This document shows, one piece after another, positions 334 to 25,760 of a stretch of DNA of 64,000 bases. Every line of letters begins with the position of its first letter. Within the stretch, counting starts at the first letter, position 1. The position numbers and the translations under genes are program-made. Where the stretch lies: contig OW028581.1 of the NCBI GenBank assembly GCA_932294295.1, forward strand, positions 39,027,995 to 39,091,994, written 5' to 3'. This DNA comes from Alitta virens. Taxonomy: Eukaryota; Annelida; Polychaeta; Phyllodocida; Nereididae. The notes beneath the pieces are model-generated. The model made no database searches and was not told the origin of the DNA. It saw nothing but the letters and a program-made list of their open reading frames with translations.

Positions 334-1649
334 TTATAAAGCAGATAAAAGGTAACCACTCTGGAATAATTGTAATCTTGAGAATACTATGCTATAGACA
401 AACACTTGATGGCCTTCACCAACACCATACGTATCACAAGAATAGCTGGATGTGGGACTTCGAATGCTCAGATCCAGTTCAGCTGAACCATAGCATTCTC
501 CCCAGTACTCAATGCCGAACATTTGGTGACCTTTCTCTCTAGCCAGAGTAGCACATTGTGGCAGCATGATCATGTTAACATGATTGTAGTAGTCTTTCCA
601 TTGTGCATTATTCACTGGCCTGTAGTTTTTTAGCCATGGACCCATGAACTTTTTAGGCAAGGTTTTGAAACAGCCATGGCCAAGAACCAATGAAGTTACT
701 GTATAAAAAACATGAATATAGGACATGTCAATTTAATTGACTGCAACCATAACTTGCTAACATAGTAAATTTTCACATGTCATTAATATACCCCAAGTGA
801 CGAGTAACTTGGTCAATGCTGGAAAGTATTTTAGTTTTAATTGTGGACAACATTCACCAACCAAAATGTTAATTTTTCATACACTTTTTAGTTATCTCAC
901 ATTGGGGCTATCCATGTAACAAGCTTGAATTTATCATATTTTTTAGGATGGACAGAGGAAAAAGACAGAAGACACCTGCCATTTTTAAGTTCTAGATACA
1001 CAAATTCCGTTTCTCATGTTCATATCTAAATCTGTTATACTTTTTTTACTGCTCAATCTAACGTCAAAATTGCATACAGACCTGTTTTTTACAGAAACCA
1101 CCCTTCACTGATTGTCCTCCCATCAATACCATGGAATGCTTTTCCATTGGAAGCAAACAGACTGCAGTTGACCTGTGACATCAAAGAAGTGACACCAACG
1201 GCATCACAATTGTTGTCAAGGTTACAAGAAATAGCACATGACAGTATCGAAGTAGTTTCAAATGAACTGGAAGTGAAGCATGAAAATAAAGTCTTACAGT
1301 GTCCTCTCATATAAATGTAAATTTTCTTATATTAATGTACAATGTCATTTGTTCTCTGGAAATGGCTGCTGTGATTTGTTTGCTCTTAAATTATTTTTAT
1401 GACAGCCATTGACATAATTTCTTTAAAACAATTTGACTTCAGACAGCTTTTTAACTTTCCAGGACAATAAAAAATTATATAAAAAAGCTACAAAATAACC
1501 TTTTTTAAGATGATTACTGAAATGTAAGGCCTTTCATTGTACAGTCTTGCTGAAGGATAATTGTTAAAATAGTTAAATTTTCCAACGTCAACTAAAGTTA
1601 CAAAAGCCAACAGCACGGCAAGTGTTGGGTAGAACTCGATGCATTTCAT
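334..1649 (-). pseudogene. Copy A of PAN-like + WSC-like secreted protein family (pseudogene)
   Basis: Three exons on the minus strand. Exon 1 (1649-1522) starts at ATG 1649 and encodes a signal peptide (MKCIEFYPTLAVLLAFV...). Exon 2 (1266-1082, 185 bp) encodes a PAN/apple-like Cys domain (LSCAISCN, NNCDAV, NCSLF). Exon 3 (698-334) encodes a WSC-like domain (GHGCFK, QCATLAREKG, FGIEYWGECYG, CDTYGVGE). Exon lengths and phases match intact copy B at 18451-21647. Two lesions are visible. The position matching copy B's GTAAG donor after exon 1 reads TTCAG here, and the Tyr near the end of exon 2 (GWFFYKS in copy B) is TAA. The C-terminus also runs about 16 residues past the copy B stop. A cryptic donor (GTAATC at 1517) would change the phase. 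I infer a non-functional copy, although exon 3 is well preserved. The family's function is unknown. Confidence 0.75.
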
Positions 1650-2261
1650 TGTAGACACAATGCTGTCAGTCAAAAGATCTGACTGATTGTGACATGGCTT
1701 CATACAGTAATCATCAAACTCGCAGTTAATGAGAACTTACTTAGGACGTTATTATCTTCTGTAACATTCAGAGCACTGCCAATTACTGGTAATGCACAGT
1801 ATTACCCTAAGTGCTTTTGTAATTTAGGAATGCGAGGACTTCGAATTGTGCATCTCAAAAGTAAAATCAATAGGGCATGAGTGCTTGGATACTTAAGATG
1901 ATAAGTTGCAAAGTTGACTCAACTGGTTTTGTGGCATAGAATATTGATCAGTTTTCAGGGCCAGGTTCACAAAAACACTGAGATCATGATGGGCCAAGCT
2001 ACAAGTTTCTGCATATTTATTCCTTGAAAATATGGAATTTAAAACCTCCAGATTAGAATGTGTAGCACTCTGTTCTGCCAGTTTCTAAAGTATTAACTCT
2101 TAACTGAAAAACAGGTGTGTTATTATTGTTCATTACCTTAATGATCCACATAACAGCAGCAACTAAATAGTTCTATCCCATAATATACGCTGAGGACACT
2201 TCTCTTTCGGCCCCATTGAATTATATTGTACGGAAGCCATTTTAGGACATGAAAAAAAAAA
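1650..2261. other. Upstream region of copy A; no gene
   Basis: The bases just upstream of the copy A ATG (AGATCTT...GACTGACAGCATT...GTCTACA on minus) resemble the leader of copy B (18395-18450) and a relic at 23114. They are probably a shared 5' UTR or promoter-proximal segment. Nothing else is recognised. Confidence 0.45.
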
Positions 2262-2531
2262 AAGGTTAAATTGTATAAACGAAATACTAATTTAAAAAAA
2301 CGAAATACTAAATTGAAAAAAAGAAATACTAAATGGAAAAAACAAAATACTAAATTGTAAAAATTTAATACTAAATTGATAAAACGGAACACTAGATGGA
2401 AAAAAGAAATACTCAATAGAAAAAACGAATTGGTAAATTATAAAAACGAATTAGTAAATTGTACAAACGAATTGGAAAAGCGTAAAAACTAATTTGTAAA
2501 TTGTAAAAAAGATTAGTAAATTGTAAAAATG
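2262..2531. repeat. Degenerate A-rich minisatellite
   Basis: About a dozen imperfect units of roughly 18-21 bp, built on AAATACTAAATTG followed by an A-run and ACG. Units later in the array shift to GAATTAGTAAATTG. The array ends a few bases before the Harbinger-like end at 2537. Confidence 0.8.
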
Positions 2532-3019
2532 ATTAAAGTGGGGTTCTCACACAGCCGATTTTCCCGGAGAAGCCGTATTGCTCTCGTAGAATCATCCATG
2601 GTAGAATGAGGCATCCGTGCTGCAACTGTGGTTATTGTGAGGTTATTGTAGAAGAAGGTGAACACCCTTACTCGATTCCTCGCAGTTGTCCCTGAACCGA
2701 GAACAACCGCCAAAAAGGACGGATGTTTTGCTCATGTTCAAAACTTCGTAGAAAACTCACGGGTGATTATTTATAGTTAGCAACCGTAGTGAAGCCGTCG
2801 TTGCTGTAGATGCATTCGTGGCATACGTCAAGTCACAAGTGAGACACTCTTACAAGCCGGTGGGTTAACCGTTGCACACGTGGGTGTCAAGAACCTGGCT
2901 GGAGAGTTATGTGTGCGACGATTAAACCATCGGCTGCTATGTTGGCACTCACGTGTACCACAGATAAGTCATTGGTTTGTACGTATAGAAAAATCAATAC
3001 CTACGTACGCTACATGTGA

Positions 3020-4124
3020 CTCACGTGTGCTAGGTCTCCTGCCAGGTCTCCTGCCAGGTCTCCTGCCAGGTCTCCTGCCAGGTCTCCTGCCAGGTCTCCT
3101 GCCAGGTCTCCTGCCAGGTCTCCTGCCAGGTCTCCTGCCAGGTCTCCTGCCAGGTCTTCTGCCAAGTCTTCTGATGTTGACATGGATGATAGCGACAGAG
3201 ATCCAGACTTTGATGTGGAGAAGGAGAAGAAAGACACCCAAGAAGAAGATGATGATAGTGATGCCAGTCAACTGCCACCCAGGCCTCCTCCACCACTGCT
3301 CCTGCTGCATCTCAGAAGAAGCCAAGAAGAAAGATTGAGAAGCTTATTCTACCTCCCAATGATGAGCAAGACATCACTGACTGGTACAAGGCGAATCACA
3401 TATTCTATGTGACTACAAGGATCATCAGAGGAAGATGAGGCTCATCGATGACAAGGCACAGACCCTCAGTGTCCCCTGTACTGGGCTACAGTTGAAGACC
3501 TGTCTTGAGTCTATCAGAACCAGTGCTGGGAAGCTCATCAAGCAGGGCCCTTCCAGTACAGCCAAGAGAAATCTGACATAGAAGGAGAAGTGGATTATTG
3601 CCAACTTTGGGTTCCTTGAGCAACACATCTCCAGGGTGCCGTCTCGTCAAGGTGTCAAACTAAAGAAGAAGATTGCGAAGAGCAAGAAGCAACTGCCTAA
3701 CTTTGATGAAAGCTCCAATGCAGGGCAGCCAGATTCTGGGCCTGAAAAACTGGAAGAAGTTGAAGAAGTTGACGTCGAGCCAAGTACAGTCTTCCCAGCG
3801 ACAACTAAGGGTGGTCCCTTCAAGAAGAGGAAGAATACTGGTGATCATTCTTCTGCATCAAGCTCCAAATTAGCTGACATAGTCCAGACTGCTCAGAAGA
3901 CAGCTGCAAGGATTGACCAGCACATAAAGGCCATCCCACAGCCTCCTCCTCCTCCTCCTGCAGATCCGAAGACCCAGAGAATTCGCTCGATGACTGACTA
4001 CATATATTCTGAGTGTCTTCAGTTGGACTGGGACACGTATGACGACGTCGAAGCCCAGCTGATGTTGTTCTTCCGGCAGCTGAAGGCAGAAGTCAGGAGG
4101 AACATGCAGCAGCAGCAACAGTAG
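3020..4124 (+). pseudogene. Harbinger accessory (MADF/Myb-like DNA-binding) protein, frameshifted
   Basis: The reading frame opens after a stop at 3017-3019 with eleven RSPA tetrapeptides. An acidic stretch follows (DVDMDDSDRDPDF...). A frame change near 3290 leads to a basic segment (QKKPRRKIEKL) and a MADF-like region (DEQDITDWYKANHIFY). A second frame change near 3410 leads to RKMRLIDDKAQTLSV, GLQLKTCLESIRTSAGKL, an in-frame TAG near 3581, then KWIIANFGFLEQHI. From 3636 the frame stays open through a Pro run and a Gln-rich end (stop at 4122-4124). The QLKTxxxSIRTSxGKL and NFGxLExHI motifs match the accessory gene at 11792-13385, so this is the same family with a different N-terminus. In Harbinger elements the second protein binds DNA and helps recruit the transposase. 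The upstream start is not resolved. Confidence 0.7.
3032..3163 (+). repeat. 12-bp coding minisatellite, 11 units, encoding (RSPA)n
   Basis: Eleven units of AGGTCTCCTGCC. The first ten are essentially identical and the last is diverged. The 12-bp period keeps the frame, so the accessory protein gains a tetrapeptide array. This explains the open frames on both strands here, which are not separate genes. Confidence 0.95.
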
Positions 4125-4694
4125 CCCGAGAAACTGACTGACCACACGCCGCTGTCATCTCTTATTCATAATGTAACGTTTATAGTGAGCCGCCATTGGC
4201 GGTGATCAGTCTGAGAAACCTACATAGGCTGAGTTCGCCCATCTGAAATATAGTGTCACGCAGGTTGTGGGGCCATCCCCAGCCTTCCTACCTATCAAAA
4301 TTTGTGTTGCGATGTGAAAAACTGGACTGTCAAGCGGTGAACATTAACATAGTTATTGACGATTTTCCACTATTACCGTCTGCTCAGAGTGTTTTGACTG
4401 ACGCGAGATCAACGTGCAGGGCGAGAGGTGGCGTAACTAGCAGGTGTGCAAACCAAACGATCATTATAAAGGACACTAGGCCTAATTTACACAGACCGGG
4501 GGCGGAGCTAGGCACCGTGCACTGTGCGCAGCGTGTATTTCCTGACTCCCGGTGTCCTGTGTGCGGTGAACCATGAAAGATTATGTATGTTTTATTATAC
4601 AAATTTATATTGTTGACTGAGAACAGAAGATAACTATTAAATATTTTCATCTTAAGCATTTATGGCGTTTTTGAAACAAATTGTAAGTCTATTA
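4125..4694. other. Spacer between Harbinger relic and the nested Harbinger; no gene
   Basis: No gene is recognised. The last three bases (TTA, 4692-4694) are the left target-site duplication of the element starting at 4695. Confidence 0.5.
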
Positions 4695-5076
4695 AGGCTC
4701 CTTCACACTTAGCCGGATCAGAGGCCGGAGTGTCCCGGAATGAAATTTCGTTAAATCCGGGGCGGTCCGGGCGAAAAAAGTCAGAAATGACAACAAATGA
4801 AATATTTGGCGGTGTGGACACGAAGGCAAGACGGTGGCAACACGGAACAACACGGCCATTACACGGATGTGTATGGTCACTACACAGATATGTACAGCTG
4901 AAACACGGTGGTGCACGGTGAACCAAGGAACGAGCCATGGTTGTTGCCGGAGGTAACACCACTGTGCCGGATGTGAACCGGATGTTACACGGGGGCCTTC
5001 ACGGATATACCCGATCTTTACACGATCTTACTACGATATCACTACTGAGTTAAGCGGTTTTCACCCGGATCGCTCC

Positions 5077-6144
5077 ATGCAAGTCCAGCTACTTACTGCT
5101 GCTAATGATATAATTCTGTATGAACAGAAACTGCAAGATGGTGCAGTGAGGGCCACAACAACAACTGATGAAGATGACTTATTACAAAATGCTGGTGCTA
5201 CACAAAGAAGAAGAAGAAGAAGAAGAAGGTGAATGTGGGTGCGACCTTGGCTCCTAAGAAGACCTCTTTATGGGCAGTATGAAAAACTGATGGCTGAATT
5301 GACTGCAGAATATGTGGGTGGCTTCAAGAATTTCATGAGTATGGAGCCTGACTTATTTCATGAAGTTCTTGCCAGAGTGGGACCTAGGATTACAAAGCAG
5401 GATACCTTTTTGAGGAGGGCTATTACCTTGCGCTACCTGGGTACGGGCAACAGCTACATGTCTCTGCAGTATGGATTTTGGGTAGCCTTCAATACCATTT
5501 CTATCTTTGTCATCGAAGTCTGCCAGGCCATCATAGACGAGTACTCAGCAGAAGTGATGCGTTATCCTGTAACCCCAGAAGCCTGGAAAGAAGTTGCCAA
5601 TGGATTCTACAACAGATGGAACTTCTCCCACTGTGTCGGCGCCATTGACGGGAAGCACGTTGCCATCAGATGTCCTGCAAAGTCTGGATCCATTGTTCTA
5701 CAACTACCAGGGATTTTTCTCTATTGTCCTACTGGCTGTAGTTGATGCTGAATACAAGTTCCTCTATATTGACATTGGTGCCAGTGGATCAGGCTCAGAT
5801 GCTGGAGTGTTTAGTCAGACAGAATTGAAGGAAGCGCCACAAAGACAGAACATTGGATTACCTGCACCAGATAACCTGCCTAATGATGACCAACCAGTGC
5901 CTTACTTCATAGTTGGGGATGATGCCTTTGGACTGCAGACTTGGATGATGGAGCCTCTGCCTCACAGGAACATGACCATGGAAGACCGAATCTTCAACTA
6001 CAGACTTTCTAGAGCTAGACGGGTGGTAGAGAATGCCTTTGGACTTTTGGCTGCCAGGTTCAGGTGTCTCCTCACAACAATGCCTCAAAGTCCTGACAGA
6101 GTGTGCACCATAACTCTTGCTTGCTGTGTGTTGCACAACCTACT
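5077..6144 (+). pseudogene. PIF/Harbinger transposase (HARBI1-like, DDE_Tnp_4), N-terminal and catalytic part
   Basis: Translation from ATG 5077 gives a leader ending in an Arg run from an (AGA)n tract, then an in-frame TGA at 5230-5232. It resumes at MWVRPWLLRRPLYGQYEKL (5233). An HTH-like region follows (RRAITLRYLGTG...SYMSLQYGF). The catalytic core is AIDGKHV (first Asp), then GASGSGSDAGVF (second Asp) and RRVVENAFGLLAARF (Glu). A 1-bp insertion near 5693 shifts the frame just after the first Asp motif (SGSI then FYNYQGFF), and the protein continues in the other frame. The ORF is cut after CCVLHNLL (codons ending at 6144) by the LINE insertion and resumes at 11240. The enzyme family cuts and pastes the element at TWA sites. 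At least three lesions are present: a nonsense codon, a frameshift and the LINE. Confidence 0.9.
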
Positions 6145-6259
6145 TCCAAAACGGGGATTTCCCAGAAAAATACTAGACAAAAAGTTGAACACAGTAAATT
6201 ATTCTTGTCCACTGTAATCTGCCCAATATTATTTTGCTTGTTCCAGCTGCTGAGCAGCA

Positions 6260-7665
6260 ATGATGGACTCAAGCACCATGACTGAAGCTGAGGATGATTA
6301 CGGAAAACTGGCCACCCTGGTCCATGGACTGAAGGATGAAATGACAGCCATGAGGGCCGCCCAGTCCCAGATGATGGAGCTCCTACAGAATATGTCGGAA
6401 AACGTCTCTGCTGAGAAGGACCTTCGCACAAAGACAGAAGAGGAACTGCAGCTACTGAAGGAGAGCATTAGGAATCAGGACAGTGTTGAGACTCCGGTCC
6501 CTGTTGCACCTAGTGTTCCTCCTCAGCCATCTCTCCTCCTGGGAACCAGTTTGCTAAGAAACATCGATAAGAACTCCCTCGAAAACTGGGAAGTGATCGC
6601 TAAGGGAGGAGCAACCGTAAGCGAACTGCATGCCGCTTTGAACGAGCTACCGGAAGAGAAGGCATCCACCGAGATTGTTGTTGTTGGGGGATCGATTGAT
6701 GTTGAGAAGAAATCCCCCGAGGAAGTCATACGGACTATCAGGCACTGATGGTGTCTACGTCGTTGCATGCCGAGAAGACAACCATCAGCAGCGTCTTGCC
6801 CCGAACGGATAAAGATCTAAGTCAGAAAACAAGGAAACTGAACGAGGACCTAAAGAAAGTGTGTGATGATATTGGCAATTCGTTTATAGACAATGATGAC
6901 ACTTTCTTTCTACGAAACGATTGTGTAAACGCTGCCACATTAGTTCAGGATGGCCTCCATTTGTCCAAACATGGAGTAGACAACCTACTGAAGAACTGCA
7001 ACATCAACCCAAAGAAAGATCTGGAATCGGCCTTCACCACCACCAGATACAAGAAGAACACAAGCTCTCCATACCGTTTCAAGGGCCACACACATCCCCT
7101 TTCGAACTTCTACCAGATCAGCGGATTTGCTATGAGGGGTGTCTCGTTCTCCACAAGTGAAGCCGCCTACATGTACAAGAAAGCGCTTCATCACGACGAC
7201 ATGGAAACAGCCGAAGCTGCCCGAAAGAGCAGAACGGGCATACAAGCGAAGCGCATCGGAGATCGCATCCACACCAACACCAGCTGGCAACGAAGAAAAG
7301 TTGATGTGATGGACAACATCATCCGAGCTAAGCTGAACGTGTGTCCTGATGCAAAGAAAGCCCTCCTGGACTCAGAGGAAAGGGACATCATCGAGGACAC
7401 TTCTCACGAGTTCTGGGGTCATGGGCATAACAGCACAGGAGAAAACATGCTGGGAAAGCTCTGGATGCTTTATCGGAAAAAAGCGAGACAGCATCTGACT
7501 CGAAAGATTCGAACCCAGCAATGGGCTACACAGAACCAACAACCAAGCTGCTATCGTTGTGGCGAGCATGGACACATGATTGAACAATGTCGTCAACCTG
7601 AAGCAATCGCCTGCTGGACCTGTGGCAAGCTTGGCCACAAGCGAAAGCACTGTCGCACCTACTAG
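6260..7665 (+). pseudogene. LINE ORF1: coiled coil + SGNH esterase-like + NADAR + 2 CCHC knuckles
   Basis: The first frame (6260-6748, 162 codons) has a coiled-coil-like segment (residues 15-72) and an SGNH block I (GTSLLRN, 95-101) with a possible block III (VVVGGSID, 140-147). TGA at 6746-6748 overlaps ATG at 6748-6750, and the second frame (305 residues) continues the esterase to its block V (DGLHLSKHG, 68-76). Residues 108-248 are a NADAR domain: PLSNFY, FSTSEAAYMYKKAL, AKRIGDRI, SW..RKVDVMDNIIRAKL, DIIEDTSHEFWGHG and GENMLGKLWMLYRKK fit the family's conserved blocks. Two CCHC knuckles follow (C268-C271-H276-C281 and C289-C292-H297-C302). Known biology: LINE ORF1 proteins bind RNA; NADAR enzymes cleave ADP-ribose N-glycosidic bonds, including on guanine bases. 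The role in this element is inference. The split is most likely a frameshift in one original ORF. Confidence 0.87.
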
Positions 7666-7710
7666 GACTCCGGCCATGCTGTACAGGCCGCTGTTAATGC
7701 TATCGCAGCT

Positions 7711-10700
7711 ATGGCAGCAAACAAGAAAAGTGACTCCGTACAAGTTGACAATCAATCTCAAAATGACAATCTTGAAATAATAGAACTGTATGATGAAAAT
7801 GTTACCAAATATTCAAGTATTAGTGCAATGCATAACTTAACTGAAAATCATGTAAATAGTTTAACAAATGAATCAAATGTAAATAATTTCACAAATGAAC
7901 AAAATAATTATAGTGTACCGAACTTGCTAGAGAATGAAGAAATTGATGCTACTGTCCTGGAAAGTGTTAATGTACATGTTAGTCCTGAAATTAGTGAACC
8001 ATGTGATGAAAGTGAAAATGAATTGGATATGAGTGTAATAAGTGATTTAACAGACTCAAATGCGACCATTATGGAAAATAGAACAGTTAATACATGTAAT
8101 CACAATGATAGCTTGGTGGAAAATGTGAATAATGAAACCAAAAGCTTGAAAGATATGTATAATGATAACTTAGTCATAGGTCACCTGAATGTAAATAGCC
8201 TTCGCCTAAAATTCAATGAAGTTAGGGAACTACTTGTGGATAGCAGATTTGAAGTATTAGTGTTGAGCGAAACTAAACTAGACTCCTCACATTGCGATAC
8301 ATTGTATGAAATAGGAAATTACACTATGTATATACAAGACAAACAATCAAATAGTGGGGGGATTGTTACATATGTTTCAAAGAACATACCTTCAACTCGA
8401 GTAAATATAAACTCATGTAACAATGAAATAGAGTGTATGCCAATTGAATTGAACTGTAAAGGTACTAAAATTTTATTATTAGGCATGTACAAAAACCCTA
8501 AAATGAAGCCCAATAATTTCAAACACTACTTTGAAAAACTCTGTGAAGAAGTCTTTGATTTATATGCACACATTGTTATTATAGGAGACCTAAACTTTAA
8601 CATGTTGCAAAATAATGTTCGGGGCTTCTCTATAGATACTGGAATTAGTGATTTTCACAACCTTATAGGTGGAGTTTTAAGACACCAACTACCTGCCCCA
8701 GCGAAAAAAGTAATCCAATACAGAAAGCTAAATAACATAGATTATAATACAGTTAACCAAGAACTGATGACTATGAACTCCGTACTAGGTTTAGCTGAAT
8801 GTGATTCAAACGAGGCTTTCAATAGACTACACAAATCATTAATCTCATTATTAGACAAACATGCTCCTAAAAAGGAAAAAGTAATAAAAAAGAATGATTT
8901 TCACTGTATAAGTAAACGACTCAAAAAGGCAATACTTGTAAGAAATCAGTTCAGAAATAAGTTCTTTAAGCATAGAAGTAACCACTTCCTAGCTCAGTAT
9001 AGAAAACATAGAAATGCAGTCACCATAATAAAGCGCGAGGAAATAAGGAAATATTTTGAAGAAAGTGCAAGGGCAACACGAAAAATAAAGAATTTTGGAA
9101 AGCAATAAAACCTATCTTCTCTCAAAGTAAAACTAAATTAGATAACATACCACTTCAGGAAAGCGACAGAATGGTCACAGAATGTAAAGAAGTCTGTCAA
9201 ATATTCAATAAATTTTTCAGTGAGATAGGCACTGATATTGCTAATACTGAAAATAATGAAAGACCTATAGAAGAAATATTTGAAACATATGCAAATCACC
9301 CTAGTGTAGAACTTACCTCTAAAAAGATAAACAAAACACACAGCAACGTAGAATTAGCACAGATATCTGAACGGGAGATAGAAAAAATTATTAGGGCCTT
9401 GTCTTCAAAGAAGGCTGCTGGATATGATGAGATCCCAGGAAAATTCATAAAAATGACAAAAATATATCTGATAGAGCCTTTAACAGTAATAGCTAATAAA
9501 TGTATTCAAGAAAATATATTCCCAGATCACATGAAAATGGCCAACATATCTCCACTATATAAGAAAAAGAACAAGCTGGACAAAGATAATTATCGATCCG
9601 TAAATCTCATGATAGCTCTCTCTAAAATTCTAGAAAAAGTCTTATCAAACCAAATTTATGAACACATGCAACCATTATTCCATGATTACTTATCTGGTTT
9701 TAGAAAAGGTCATGGTTGTCATGATATCCTAACTAGACTAGTGGAAGACTGGCGTGAAGCATTGGACAATGGAAATTCAGTAGGGGTTATAGCTATAGAT
9801 CTCTCAAAAGCATTCGACTGCATGCCATATGGTCTCCTTTTGGCCAAACTACATGCTTATGGCTTCAGTACAAATGTATGTAACTTACTAAAATCATACC
9901 TAGTGAATAGGAAGCAAAGAGTGAAAATAGGAAATACATGCTCTGAATGGATAAACAATAGAAAGGGGGTTCCCCAGGGATCAATTCTAGGGCCATTGTT
10001 GTTCAATGTGTTTATAAATGACCTTCTCTATCATAATATAAGCTCTAAAGCATACAATAACGCTGATGACAACACATTTAGCTACAGTGATAAAGATGTA
10101 AATGCAATAAAAGTTAAACTTGAGGCGGACTGTGAAATTGCAATGAAATGGTTTCAGTTAAACAATATGAAAGCCAATGCTGATAAGTTTCAACTTATGT
10201 TCTTAAGTCGCAATCACTCAAATAATGAAATTGTTATAAATATTGGAAACTACTCTATACAGAGCTCCTCCTCAATTACTATTCTGGGAGTTGAATTTGA
10301 CAACAATCTTAACTTTGCCAATCATACAGATGAATTATGCAAACAGACAAGTAAACAAATAAAAGGATTAAAAACTGCTTTGATAAACAATGCAAGAGAG
10401 TATTGTATAACAGCTATATAAGTAGCAATTTTAACTACTGCCCAGTCGTATGGATGTTTGCAAACAGATCAAACCAAGAGAAACTTGAAAAAACTAATAA
10501 AAGAGCATTACGATTTGTTGCAAATGATAGCGAAACAGAATATGATGACCTATGCAGAAATGAACAGCAACTAAATATATATAAAGGTGGATAAAAACTG
10601 TAGCAATCCAGATGTACAAAATTAAAAATCAAACAGCCCCAATATTCATGCAAAACCTCTTTGTCCGTAGGGAATCTCGGTACGAAATGAGAGACAATGA

Positions 10701-10887
10701 TGTATATAATATTCCACGATACAAAACTGTTACTTATGGAAAGAAAAGCTTCAGATACTATGGGGCAAAATTATGGTCGATTATACCTGTAGATATCAAA
10801 GATACAAACTCTCTTGTTAGTTTCAAATCTGCTCTTACACAATGGTTACAAAACTATGAAAATGTGTCAAATTTAGAATTTTTATAG
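7711..10887 (+). pseudogene. LINE ORF2: APE endonuclease + reverse transcriptase, frameshifted
   Basis: ATG 7711 lies 45 bp after ORF1. Residues 1-150 are an acidic, Asn-rich linker. The endonuclease starts near 153 (VIGHLNVNSLR) with LSETKLDSS, SGGIVTYVS, GMYKNPKMKP and GDLNFNML. The next segment jumps straight to TGISDFHNLIGG, so the stretch between GDLN and SDFH is shorter than usual, an apparent in-frame deletion of roughly 40 codons. A 1-bp loss near 9095 moves the frame, and the RT follows (9171-10421): YRSVNLMIALSKILEKVL, GVIAIDLSKAFDCM, KGVPQGSILGPLLFN and NADDN where YADD is expected. Two more frameshifts (near 10405 and 10590) separate the thumb/C-terminal parts (NYCPVVWMF; MYKIKNQTAP; FRYYGAKLWSIIP). 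The final stop ends at 10887. Confidence 0.9.
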
Positions 10888-11218
10888 AAGTACGTTATAA
10901 TTATTATGTATACAAATGTATTGCCTTTGGGTGACTATGAACTGTATGGTGCTATATGCCAAAGGTACTAAATATGTATATATTACCAAGCTCTGTCATG
11001 TAGCCTTGATAAATATTACTTTGACCCTACTAGATAGGAACTGTATGTAGATTTTAGTTATTAATTTCAAATACTATTTGTTTTACTTTGATTTGATTTA
11101 ATATACATTTTAACAGTATTATAGTCGTACAGAAGCGTAATGCTTGGATATCATGTAAAATGTGCTGTATATATGTGTATTTTATATGTATTCGGATTGT
11201 ATACGACTCAAAATAAAA
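10888..11218 (+). other. LINE 3' untranslated region
   Basis: AT-rich sequence between the last ORF2 stop and the (TATC)n tail. No further coding signal is seen. Confidence 0.7.
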
Positions 11219-11243
11219 TGTATCTATCTATCTATCTATCTAC
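11219..11243 (+). repeat. (TATC)n tail of the LINE
   Basis: About five TATC units end the element and merge with the CTACT duplication. Tandem-repeat tails rather than poly(A) are typical of CR1/L2-like LINEs. Confidence 0.9.
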
Positions 11244-11467
11244 TGAGGATGAAGTATCCAACTGCTCAAGTGAATGCTGTGGACCAGAAAAATGCAGACA
11301 TCCATGAGATCATCCCAGGTGCATGGAGGGAGAATGCCAATCTACCAGACATGGGACATGTGTACAGAGGCAACACCAACAGAGCAGCCAAGGAAATGTG
11401 GCAATACTTGGTCAACTACGTGAACTCAGAAGCTGGGAGTGTACCATGGCAACAAGACAAGATTTGA
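11240..11467 (+). pseudogene. Transposase C-terminal part, displaced by the LINE
   Basis: The codons CTA CTG AGG ATG AAG TAT continue the HNLL reading broken at 6144, giving HNL-LRMKYPTAQ. The tail runs through GAWRENANLPDMGHVYRGN and EMWQYLVNYVNSEAGS to a stop at 11465-11467. The duplicated CTACT on both sides (6140-6144 and 11240-11244) confirms that this is the far half of the same gene. Confidence 0.9.
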
Positions 11468-24080: not shown

Positions 24081-25760
24081 AATATTATTAAGCAATTATG
24101 ACTTAGGTGCAGATTGTCGATCAGTGAGTGTAAAATATAGCAAATATGTGGAAATCTCACTATCAGAGCTTGTTTACCTGTCTACAGACTACAAGATCTG
24201 TTAATTATGTGGTTGACTCTGACCCTGTTCCTTGTGTAACTGCTGATGATATTAGATACTTTGTTTATAAAATGGACAATGATAAATCAAATGGTATTGA
24301 TGGACTTTATGCTGAAAACCTTAAATATGCTAGCCCAAGGCTTTTTGTCTTGTTAGCCATGTGTATATCTGGCATGTTTGTGCATGGTTTTCTACCTGAA
24401 TCAATGTTAAATGCAATCCTTGTTCCTGTTATAAAGGACAAAGCCAAGAAAATTGGCAGTACTGCCAATTATAGACCAATAGCTCTTGCCAATGTTCTAT
24501 CTAAACTTGTTGAAAATGTCATACTCAATAGGATAGAGGAGAAACTGCTTACTACTAGTCTTCAATTTGGTTTTAAGTCTGAACATGGTACAGACATGTG
24601 TATTTATGTCCTGAAGGAGATTATTGATCGCTACCGTGCATGTAATGGGCATGTTTGCATGTGCTTTTTAGATGCGTCAAAAGCTTTTGATCATGTAAAC
24701 CATGAAATATTATTTAGAAAACTGGTTACAAGAGGAGTACCTGGCTATATTATCAGAATACTCCTACACTGGTACTCAAATCAGACTGTGTTTGTCAAAT
24801 GGGGAAATGCGCTGTCGCAGCCCTTCTCAGTGAGTAATGGAGTTAGACAAGGGGGAGTGTTGTCACCATTTCTATTAAATGTCTATATGGATGATCTCAG
24901 TAGTATACTTAATTGACAACAAACAGGATGTACAATTGGTGATACAGTTATTAACCATCTCATGTACGCTGATGACCTTGTCCTAATTTCATCCTCAGCC
25001 TCAGGGCTCCAAAAATTAATTGATGAATGTTCTACCTATGGCTCTGCCCATGACATCAAGTACAATTGTAATAAAAGTGCAATTTTGGTGGTAAGGAGTT
25101 CGTAAATAATGCATGTTGCTCTGCCTTCTTTCAGCATTAGCCATGATTTAATTAATGAAGTAGATCATGTTAAGTATTTGGGACATATTATACCTTGAAA
25201 TGCATCTGATGACATGGATATATTGAGACAATGTAGAAGCTTGTATATTCAGTGTAATGTTCTTGTTCGTAAATTTTTTATGGGTTCAAGTACTGTTAAG
25301 AAAATCTTATTTAAATCCTACTGTTATCCCATGTACACATGTTAGTTGTGGTTATAACAATGCATTTTGTGGTCTGATGGGCTATTCCAAGTATTGTAGT
25401 GCTAGTCTGAAGTTCACTAGTCATAGAGTTAGCACCTTTGAAGCAGTTATTAGAAATCTTGTCTATAAATTTAGTAAAAGGATCAACAGGTCTGAAAAAA
25501 GTATTATTATGAATGTTATTAGTAGTGACGCCTTTTGGCAATCTTACATAAGAAGACATTGGGACTCATTGTTATATTTGTATTGGACGAGCAGTTGAGC
25601 TGCTTCGTACTGTTGTTTTGTGAATTCGTTTTTACAGTGCCATACAATAATACTCAGTAATTAGGTAGTTATTAGAAGATATGGACCCCCATATATTGTA
25701 CCTAATGTATGTGTGTGTGTCTGCAATAAAGATTAATAATAATAATAATAAAATAATAGG
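24081..25760 (+). mobile_element. 5'-truncated LINE with RT, (TAA)n-tailed
   Basis: Starts inside ORF2 just before the RT and ends with AATAAAGATTAATAATAATAA at about 25726-25750. No endonuclease precedes it. The tail pattern (AATAAA plus tandem repeat) matches the LINE fragment at 45121-46640, perhaps the same family. Confidence 0.8.
24146..25590 (+). pseudogene. LINE reverse transcriptase, decayed
   Basis: Frame 24146-24916 covers MWKSHYQSLF, DNDKSNGIDGLYAENLKYA, PVIKDKAKK, NYRPIALANVLSKLVENVI, CFLDASKAFDHVNHEILF (palm Asp), SNGVRQGGVLSPFLLNVYMDDL and an in-frame TGA at 24914. It continues past that stop with CTIGDTVINHLMYADDLVLIS, so the YADD active site is present, then breaks at 25104 and further stops. 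The C-terminal thumb is recognisable in shifted frames (VKYLGHIIP; FKSYCYPMYTC). Confidence 0.85.

Follow-up and report, generated by a model that had tools for sequence, protein, structure and literature searches.

A NADAR domain between an SGNH hydrolase-like domain and CCHC zinc knuckles in ORF1 of a LINE family of the annelid Alitta virens

Introduction

Tx1 elements are long interspersed nuclear elements (LINEs) of the L1 group. In the oyster Crassostrea gigas the first open reading frames (ORF1s) of several Tx1 LINEs contain a NADAR domain of the YbiA family, and such a domain has also been reported from one lineage of Gypsy retrotransposons of the brown alga Ectocarpus where, in a long terminal repeat element, it resides at the N-terminus of Pol and not in ORF1 (PMC12477816). 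In the present study we analyse a 64,000-nucleotide stretch of the genome of the annelid Alitta virens (contig OW028581.1 of assembly GCA_932294295.1, positions 39,027,995 to 39,091,994, forward strand; hereafter “the window”), which harbours a coding-defective LINE copy whose ORF1, compared to that of Tx1, is arranged as SGNH hydrolase-like domain, NADAR domain and two CCHC zinc knuckles. A preliminary description, made from the nucleotide sequence alone, knew of no described LINE with a NADAR domain. In this general form the statement does not hold since LINE-borne NADAR domains are already in print; the SGNH-NADAR-CCHC arrangement, however, was not found in the open-access papers searched, most subscription papers, Repbase Reports and preprints lying outside the scope of this search.

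Coiled coil and SGNH domain are shared with the Type IV (esterase) ORF1s of CR1/L2 LINEs such as ZfL2-1, lineages whose ORF1s also include PHD fingers (PMC3905857, PMC4120745). In the parts of both papers at hand NADAR is not mentioned for these ORF1s, nor is it contained in the domain table of PMC4120745 as shown; in this survey of CR1, L2 and Jockey ORF1s, the vertebrate groups of CR1 and L2 are the only ones reported to have esterase ORF1s. The relatives of the window ORF1 are set apart from Type IV ORF1s by an Ile or Val at the position of the SGNH block III Asn in 34 of 37 aligned rows.

Unlike a LINE, a positive-strand RNA virus encoding a polyprotein does not make use of reverse transcription. 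In animal viruses of this kind NADAR is found beside the polymerase, hence likewise within a selfish RNA-based replicator (PMC9503650). The nematode protein SNA-3 resembles the present case as an animal NADAR protein which is tied to RNA and whose NADAR residues matter, but belongs to the host, functions in splicing and comprises three NADAR domains; beyond the nematodes it is said to have no homologues (PMC9303266). Escherichia coli YbiA and the DarT1-associated NADARs, which agree in fold and catalytic Glu and Lys, differ in being stand-alone or toxin-antitoxin proteins outside retrotransposons, and NADARs reverse the ADP-ribosylation of guanine (PMC11543638, PMC11125620). Bacteria and phages provide documented cases of reversible nucleic-acid ADP-ribosylation, while it is described as unclear what NADARs do in eukaryotes, including animals (PMC11125620).

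The NADAR domain of ORF1

The window contains a genuine NADAR domain (Table 1). Its profile score of 78 bits clearly exceeds the curated Pfam cut-off of 35.1 (E = 1.3e-21), and the predicted model (pLDDT 97.5) finds YbiA and an ADP-ribose-bound NADAR as its sole matches in the PDB (TMq 0.80 to 2b3w and 0.84 to 8bau), i.e. it displays the YbiA fold. Profile search and structure comparison thus bear out the preliminary description, which had placed the domain at 7069 to 7491, between an SGNH esterase-like domain and two CCHC knuckles; the latter arrangement is confirmed as well, with the SGNH domain being frameshifted. Chance or coincidence of motifs as the source of the NADAR signal is ruled out by profile, fold and family evidence.

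In the alignment of ORF1s, Glu151 and Lys158 are unchanged in all 51 rows, as is Glu229 in all 49 rows reaching this column. The equivalence of the former two to Glu88 and Lys95 of E. coli C7 NADAR, residues named in the literature, is deduced from the alignment and from the Glu-Lys spacing of seven. Glu229 occupies the catalytic position in the last strand which is common to YbiA and the window NADAR; as this residue is Glu and not Asp or His, the domain belongs to the YbiA subfamily. The same Glu/Lys pair is kept in 32 of 32 NADAR domains from the genome regions described below (window, L030 and L042 included), with 26 of them having Glu and six having His as the third catalytic residue. Since the catalytic residues are unchanged, the presence of an enzyme-competent NADAR in the ORF1 of a LINE is supported, and we regard the domain as very probably catalytically competent.

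This bears on the possibility that NADAR has no turnover and is a module which gives structure or reads ADP-ribose in the assembly or targeting of the ribonucleoprotein (RNP). That ORF1 enzymes can lose catalytic residues is indicated by the adjoining SGNH domain, which in most relatives no longer holds the block III Asn: the Ser is kept in all 35 rows in which it is present and Asp and His in all 37, while GTND in block III is restricted to P0046 and P0047, so that the catalytic set is incomplete. In contrast to the SGNH Asn, Glu and Lys of NADAR are invariant and we consider a pure binding function improbable. A distant lineage (P0046, P0047, L038, L040) retains the GTND motif, whose Asn was lost in the main group.

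Within ORF1 of the window copy, which starts with ATG, the frame changes inside the SGNH part at about 6706 to 6748. SGNH and coiled coil as in Type IV ORF1s are both present in the relative P0001. In some ORF1 relatives a PHD-like N-terminal finger is found (P0015: E = 6.9e-4, below the curated cut-off).

Copies, families and selection

A search of public protein sets yielded 53 matches, 50 of which (P0001-P0050, some partial) align as ORF1s; 21 of these were inspected as whole sequences. In the genome of A. virens itself (671 Mb, 23 contigs), 125 scored out of 727 first-look candidates gave at least 135 matching segments, which are not to be equated with copies. We fetched 33 regions (L010-L042) which had been picked by ORF1 match, so that the presence of NADAR in them is partly due to selection. 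Endonuclease and reverse transcriptase (RT) matches occur in the same order as in the window in 18 of the 20 window-like regions (L010-L029), L010 showing the endonuclease alone and L024 neither; in a more distant lineage (L037-L041, RT segments 31-45% identical) ORF1, endonuclease and RT matches are present in all five regions.

Family A consists of L011-L015 and L029, which are spread over five contigs; compared to L012, identity amounts to 99.77-99.89% along 4.6-5.7 kb. The flanks differ among the four copies whose ends were read. Near-identity together with differing flanks points to recent movement. In L012 both ORFs are open (560 and 1085 codons).

To NADAR, ratios of non-synonymous to synonymous substitution (dN/dS) of 0.14 (L011-L018) and 0.19 (L016-L018) were assigned; both comparisons involve L018 and are not independent. 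The SGNH domain gave 0.13 and 0.18 for the same pairs at dS values near saturation (1.52 and 1.85). The underlying set of 32 domains includes L042, the host-like genes of L030 and the window copy; the duplicate loci L002-L004, L006, L007 and L009 were left out, as were L001 and those domains in which too few positions of the profile were covered. Seven of its 496 pairs show 0.1 < dS < 1.5, namely the six family A copies versus L018 and L016 versus L018; for the remaining pairs of eight representatives NADAR dS is above 1.5 or saturated, with dN between 0.19 and 0.57. Judged by the two comparisons sharing L018, NADAR is under purifying selection between families.

A one-off fusion with a host gene, or a chance capture devoid of function, might be suspected from the broken state of the window copy. 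Yet the 50 outside ORF1 relatives, the many copies and several families within the genome and the observed selection contradict this explanation, whose probability we consider practically negligible; the genome copies carrying NADAR together with endonuclease and RT rule out a one-off event. In our view NADAR is best explained as a standing, selected enzyme of the RNA-packaging protein of the LINE (ORF1p); its place between SGNH and CCHC domains is fixed.

Possible function

In the mechanism we propose, ORF1p would self-associate through its coiled coil while its CCHC knuckles would coat the element RNA. This coating would bring NADAR to the RNA, the complementary DNA (cDNA) and the nicked target within the RNP, where it could release ADP-ribose from guanine by hydrolysis or cleave a related N-glycosidic adduct of nucleic acid. 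Host ADP-ribosyltransferases would be the source of the ADP-ribose, which would otherwise block reverse transcription or integration. For pierid butterflies as well as six edible clams, an endogenous activity that ADP-ribosylates guanine in DNA has been described (PMC11209040). The selected, intact domain suggests that nucleic acids of the LINE may carry a modification set by the host which the element has to remove, and counter-defence against host PARP/ART enzymes is a hypothesis compatible with the data. That NADAR constitutes a nucleic-acid repair or counter-defence tool of the LINE appears to us the best explanation, held just short of even confidence.

Several points weigh against it. 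The Arg of 8bau which we take as the pyrophosphate-contacting Arg79 (numbering deduced) aligns with an Asp here. YbiA is also an N-glycosidase acting on intermediates of the riboflavin pathway. SNA-3 with its three NADAR domains serves spliced-leader trans-splicing (PMC9303266). Finally, de-ADP-ribosylation in vitro is not always accompanied by antitoxin activity in vivo (PMC11125620); because in vitro activity does not predict specificity in vivo, the substrate is not readable from sequence.

According to one alternative, the substrates of NADAR are NAD- or ADP-ribose-derived products arising in the RNA metabolism of the element transcript, and not a defence mark set by the host. Processing of RNA intermediates was proposed for the Gypsy and Tx1 NADARs by the authors of the Ectocarpus study (PMC12477816), NADAR has been associated with RNA repair (PMC9503650) and the nuclear RNA function of SNA-3 requires NADAR residues (PMC9303266). 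A Pfam scan of the ORFs of the window element, not extended to the ORF2s of relatives, revealed no RNA kinase, ligase or KptA-like domain accompanying NADAR, and we deem this alternative unlikely. The role of SNA-3 led us to raise its probability a little, from a somewhat lower starting value, and to lower that of the repair or counter-defence function from an even chance to the level given above.

Destruction of small NAD-derived immune alarm molecules has been proposed for phage NADARs (PMC9503650); the LINE domain may do the same, its location in ORF1p being incidental. That several LINE types have NADAR fused to an ORF1 which binds nucleic acids speaks for a substrate within the RNP instead, and PMC9503650 favours macromolecular targets for the NADARs of eukaryotic RNA viruses; scavenging of soluble signals therefore strikes us as quite improbable. 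Recently mobile LINEs with a catalytically complete, selected NADAR offer a directly testable system with respect to the mark removed, its writer and the need of NADAR for retrotransposition.

NADAR domains in other LINE lineages and their origin

In six regions (L031-L036; contigs C4, C9, C11, C14 and C10) the third catalytic position of NADAR is occupied by His, as described for phage NADARs (PMC11125620). L034 and L035 align over nearly their whole length (98%) and were counted as one. The displayed frames of L031, L033 and L034 show NADAR followed by an SGNH-like stretch, the reverse of the order in the window ORF1. RT matches, 25% identical to the window RT, are present in L032, L033 and L036; in L033 an open frame of 1229 codons containing RT lies 3' of ORF1, and L034 exhibits endonuclease- and RT-like frames by eye. 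These regions represent one further LINE-like lineage, or two.

A C-terminal NADAR is furthermore attached to L1-type ORF1s in the public proteins P0052, P0077-P0091 and P0093-P0095 (P0087 partial), which are perhaps of the same kind as the oyster Tx1 ORF1s. Together with P0096, these form a set whose profile matches LINE-1 ORF1p (2ykp, E = 2e-12); as only a single one of the 20 rows matches the Pfam L1 ORF1 model on its own, the L1-type assignment rests on this profile match. Their NADAR loop measures 28-30 residues in those 12 of 19 rows which were measurable by motif, compared to 19 residues in 32 of 36 measured rows of the SGNH group and 17 or 14 in the other four (13 of 49 rows were not measured). 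In a first tree, which used 24 of the 49 usable SGNH-group rows, three short domains having been left out of the domain set, the SGNH group (98/95) stands apart from the L1-type group with P0092 (98/97), although an approximately unbiased test does not reject a topology holding both LINE groups together (p 0.126). In hhalign comparisons the SGNH group scores 250 against stand-alone NADARs, among which only P0076 is named as bacterial, and 215 against the L1-type group. Loop length, the closer stand-alone profile and the His of L031-L036 favour separate gains, and two or more captures of NADAR by LINEs are likely, though not proven.

A more far-reaching reading sees in NADAR a general device with which animal retrotransposons counter ADP-ribosylation. 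There would have been three or more captures (SGNH-NADAR-CCHC with YbiA-type Glu, His-type NADAR-SGNH and long-loop L1-type ORF1), and the maintenance of NADAR by families that moved recently would reveal a yet undiscovered host defence. Such a defence, perhaps relying on pierisin or CARP-1-like enzymes, would ADP-ribosylate retrotransposon RNA, cDNA or target DNA. We hold this reading to be doubtful, a little more so in view of the role of SNA-3.

In a second tree the SGNH-NADAR-CCHC LINEs do not form one side of a branch (2 changes), and two host-like NADAR genes of L030 and L042 are placed among them with weak support (80/26). In view of this placement, the LINE NADAR domain may derive from the host or have been exchanged with it. 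L030 contains two adjoining host-like NADAR frames (1599-4814, plus strand, and 5686-7101, minus strand), one of them a long frame with a high content of Ser, Arg and Lys; they are possible cellular relatives of the LINE domain. In L042 (1290-2639) NADAR is preceded by an SGNH-like stretch, whereas CCHC knuckles are absent and no RT match lies nearby; it may be an element or a host gene.

Among viral contigs no relative was confirmed by protein or profile search. The sole relative from genome contigs, L001, stems from the metagenome-assembled genome of an endosymbiont of Escarpia laminata and shows NADAR beside RPA-C-like and C2H2 zinc-finger genes. Judged by its ORFs it is not a LINE, and RT or endonuclease matches are lacking; it is perhaps host or DNA-virus-like DNA.

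The junction of ORF1 and ORF2

The TAG codon which terminates ORF1 in the window and in its family relatives L005, L008 and L010 is followed by exactly six bases, GGCC, a ten-base loop and GGCC. This pattern occurs in 21 of 37 scanned sequences, six duplicates and L043 being excluded: the window and the 20 loci L005, L008, L010-L015, L017-L021, L023, L025, L028, L029, L038, L040 and L041. Wherever it was read, the TAG is the ORF1 stop and ORF2 continues in the same frame. The 16 sequences without the pattern include other element types and host-like genes, and L027 and L039 retain a part of it, consisting of TAG and the first GGCCAT. The ORF2 frame has its first Met after codon 76 in five of the seven sequences that represent families. 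The Gly GGC and Ala GCC codons are invariant among the seven, though between most families synonymous sites are saturated; with its pairs invariant, the stem shows no covariation. The junction looks like a candidate UAG readthrough signal for ORF2.

The copy in the window and its insertion site

Table 1. Coordinates of the features in the window.
Feature	Position	Strand	Evidence
Coding-defective LINE copy of about 5.1 kb with (TCTA)n as 3' tail, 5' end provisional	6145..11239	+	interrupted Harbinger transposase frame and CTACT
Target-site duplication CTACT, left copy	6140..6144	.	repeat at both element ends
Target-site duplication CTACT, right copy	11240..11244	.	repeat at both element ends
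ORF1: coiled coil, SGNH, NADAR, two CCHC knuckles; TAG at 7663-7665	6260..7665	+	open frames
SGNH (GDSL) hydrolase-like domain, split by frame change, approximate limits	6526..7025	+	likeness to P0001
NADAR domain (PF08719)	7087..7482	+	profile match, predicted structure
Catalytic Glu of NADAR, equated with E88 of E. coli C7 NADAR	7159..7161	+	51/51 rows
Catalytic Lys of NADAR, equated with K95 of E. coli C7 NADAR	7180..7182	+	51/51 rows
Glu of last strand, YbiA-type catalytic position	7393..7395	+	49/49 rows reaching it
Two CCHC zinc knuckles	7549..7653	+	Pfam scan
TAG stop of ORF1 and conserved hairpin of GGCC, candidate signal for readthrough into ORF2	7663..7690	+	pattern scan, alignment
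Endonuclease (EEP) match in ORF2	8185..8649	+	Pfam scan; internal deletion versus L012 by eye
Reverse transcriptase domain of ORF2	9561..10298	+	Pfam scan, open frames
Harbinger/PIF-type transposase gene, split by LINE	5233-6139 and 11245-11467		DDE_Tnp_4 8.7e-28

The element is identified as a LINE by its short target-site duplication and simple-repeat 3' tail as well as by the order of EEP endonuclease and RT, both 3' of ORF1 in the Pfam scan. The PDB matches of its RT are L1, R2 and more distant RTs. It has inserted into a Harbinger/PIF transposase gene which, according to the list of open frames, is itself spread over two overlapping frames. With CTACT as the duplication, the removal of 5100 bases restores an uninterrupted transposase reading across the insertion site, on which the limits of the element are based. 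An alternative duplication, the 5-mer TCCAA repeated at 6145 and 11257, was discarded as the transposase frame is not restored at its place. Duplications of 5 bp are likewise left by zebrafish ZfL2-1 (PMC4245944).

The window copy is dead, with defects in the SGNH part, the endonuclease and the RT-bearing ORF2, the latter showing a frame change at about 9060 to 9108 and a stop at 10419 to 10421; its NADAR reading frame is still open. Elsewhere in the window, at 24134 to 24913, an RT fragment of another retroelement is present (PF00078, 6.4e-23).
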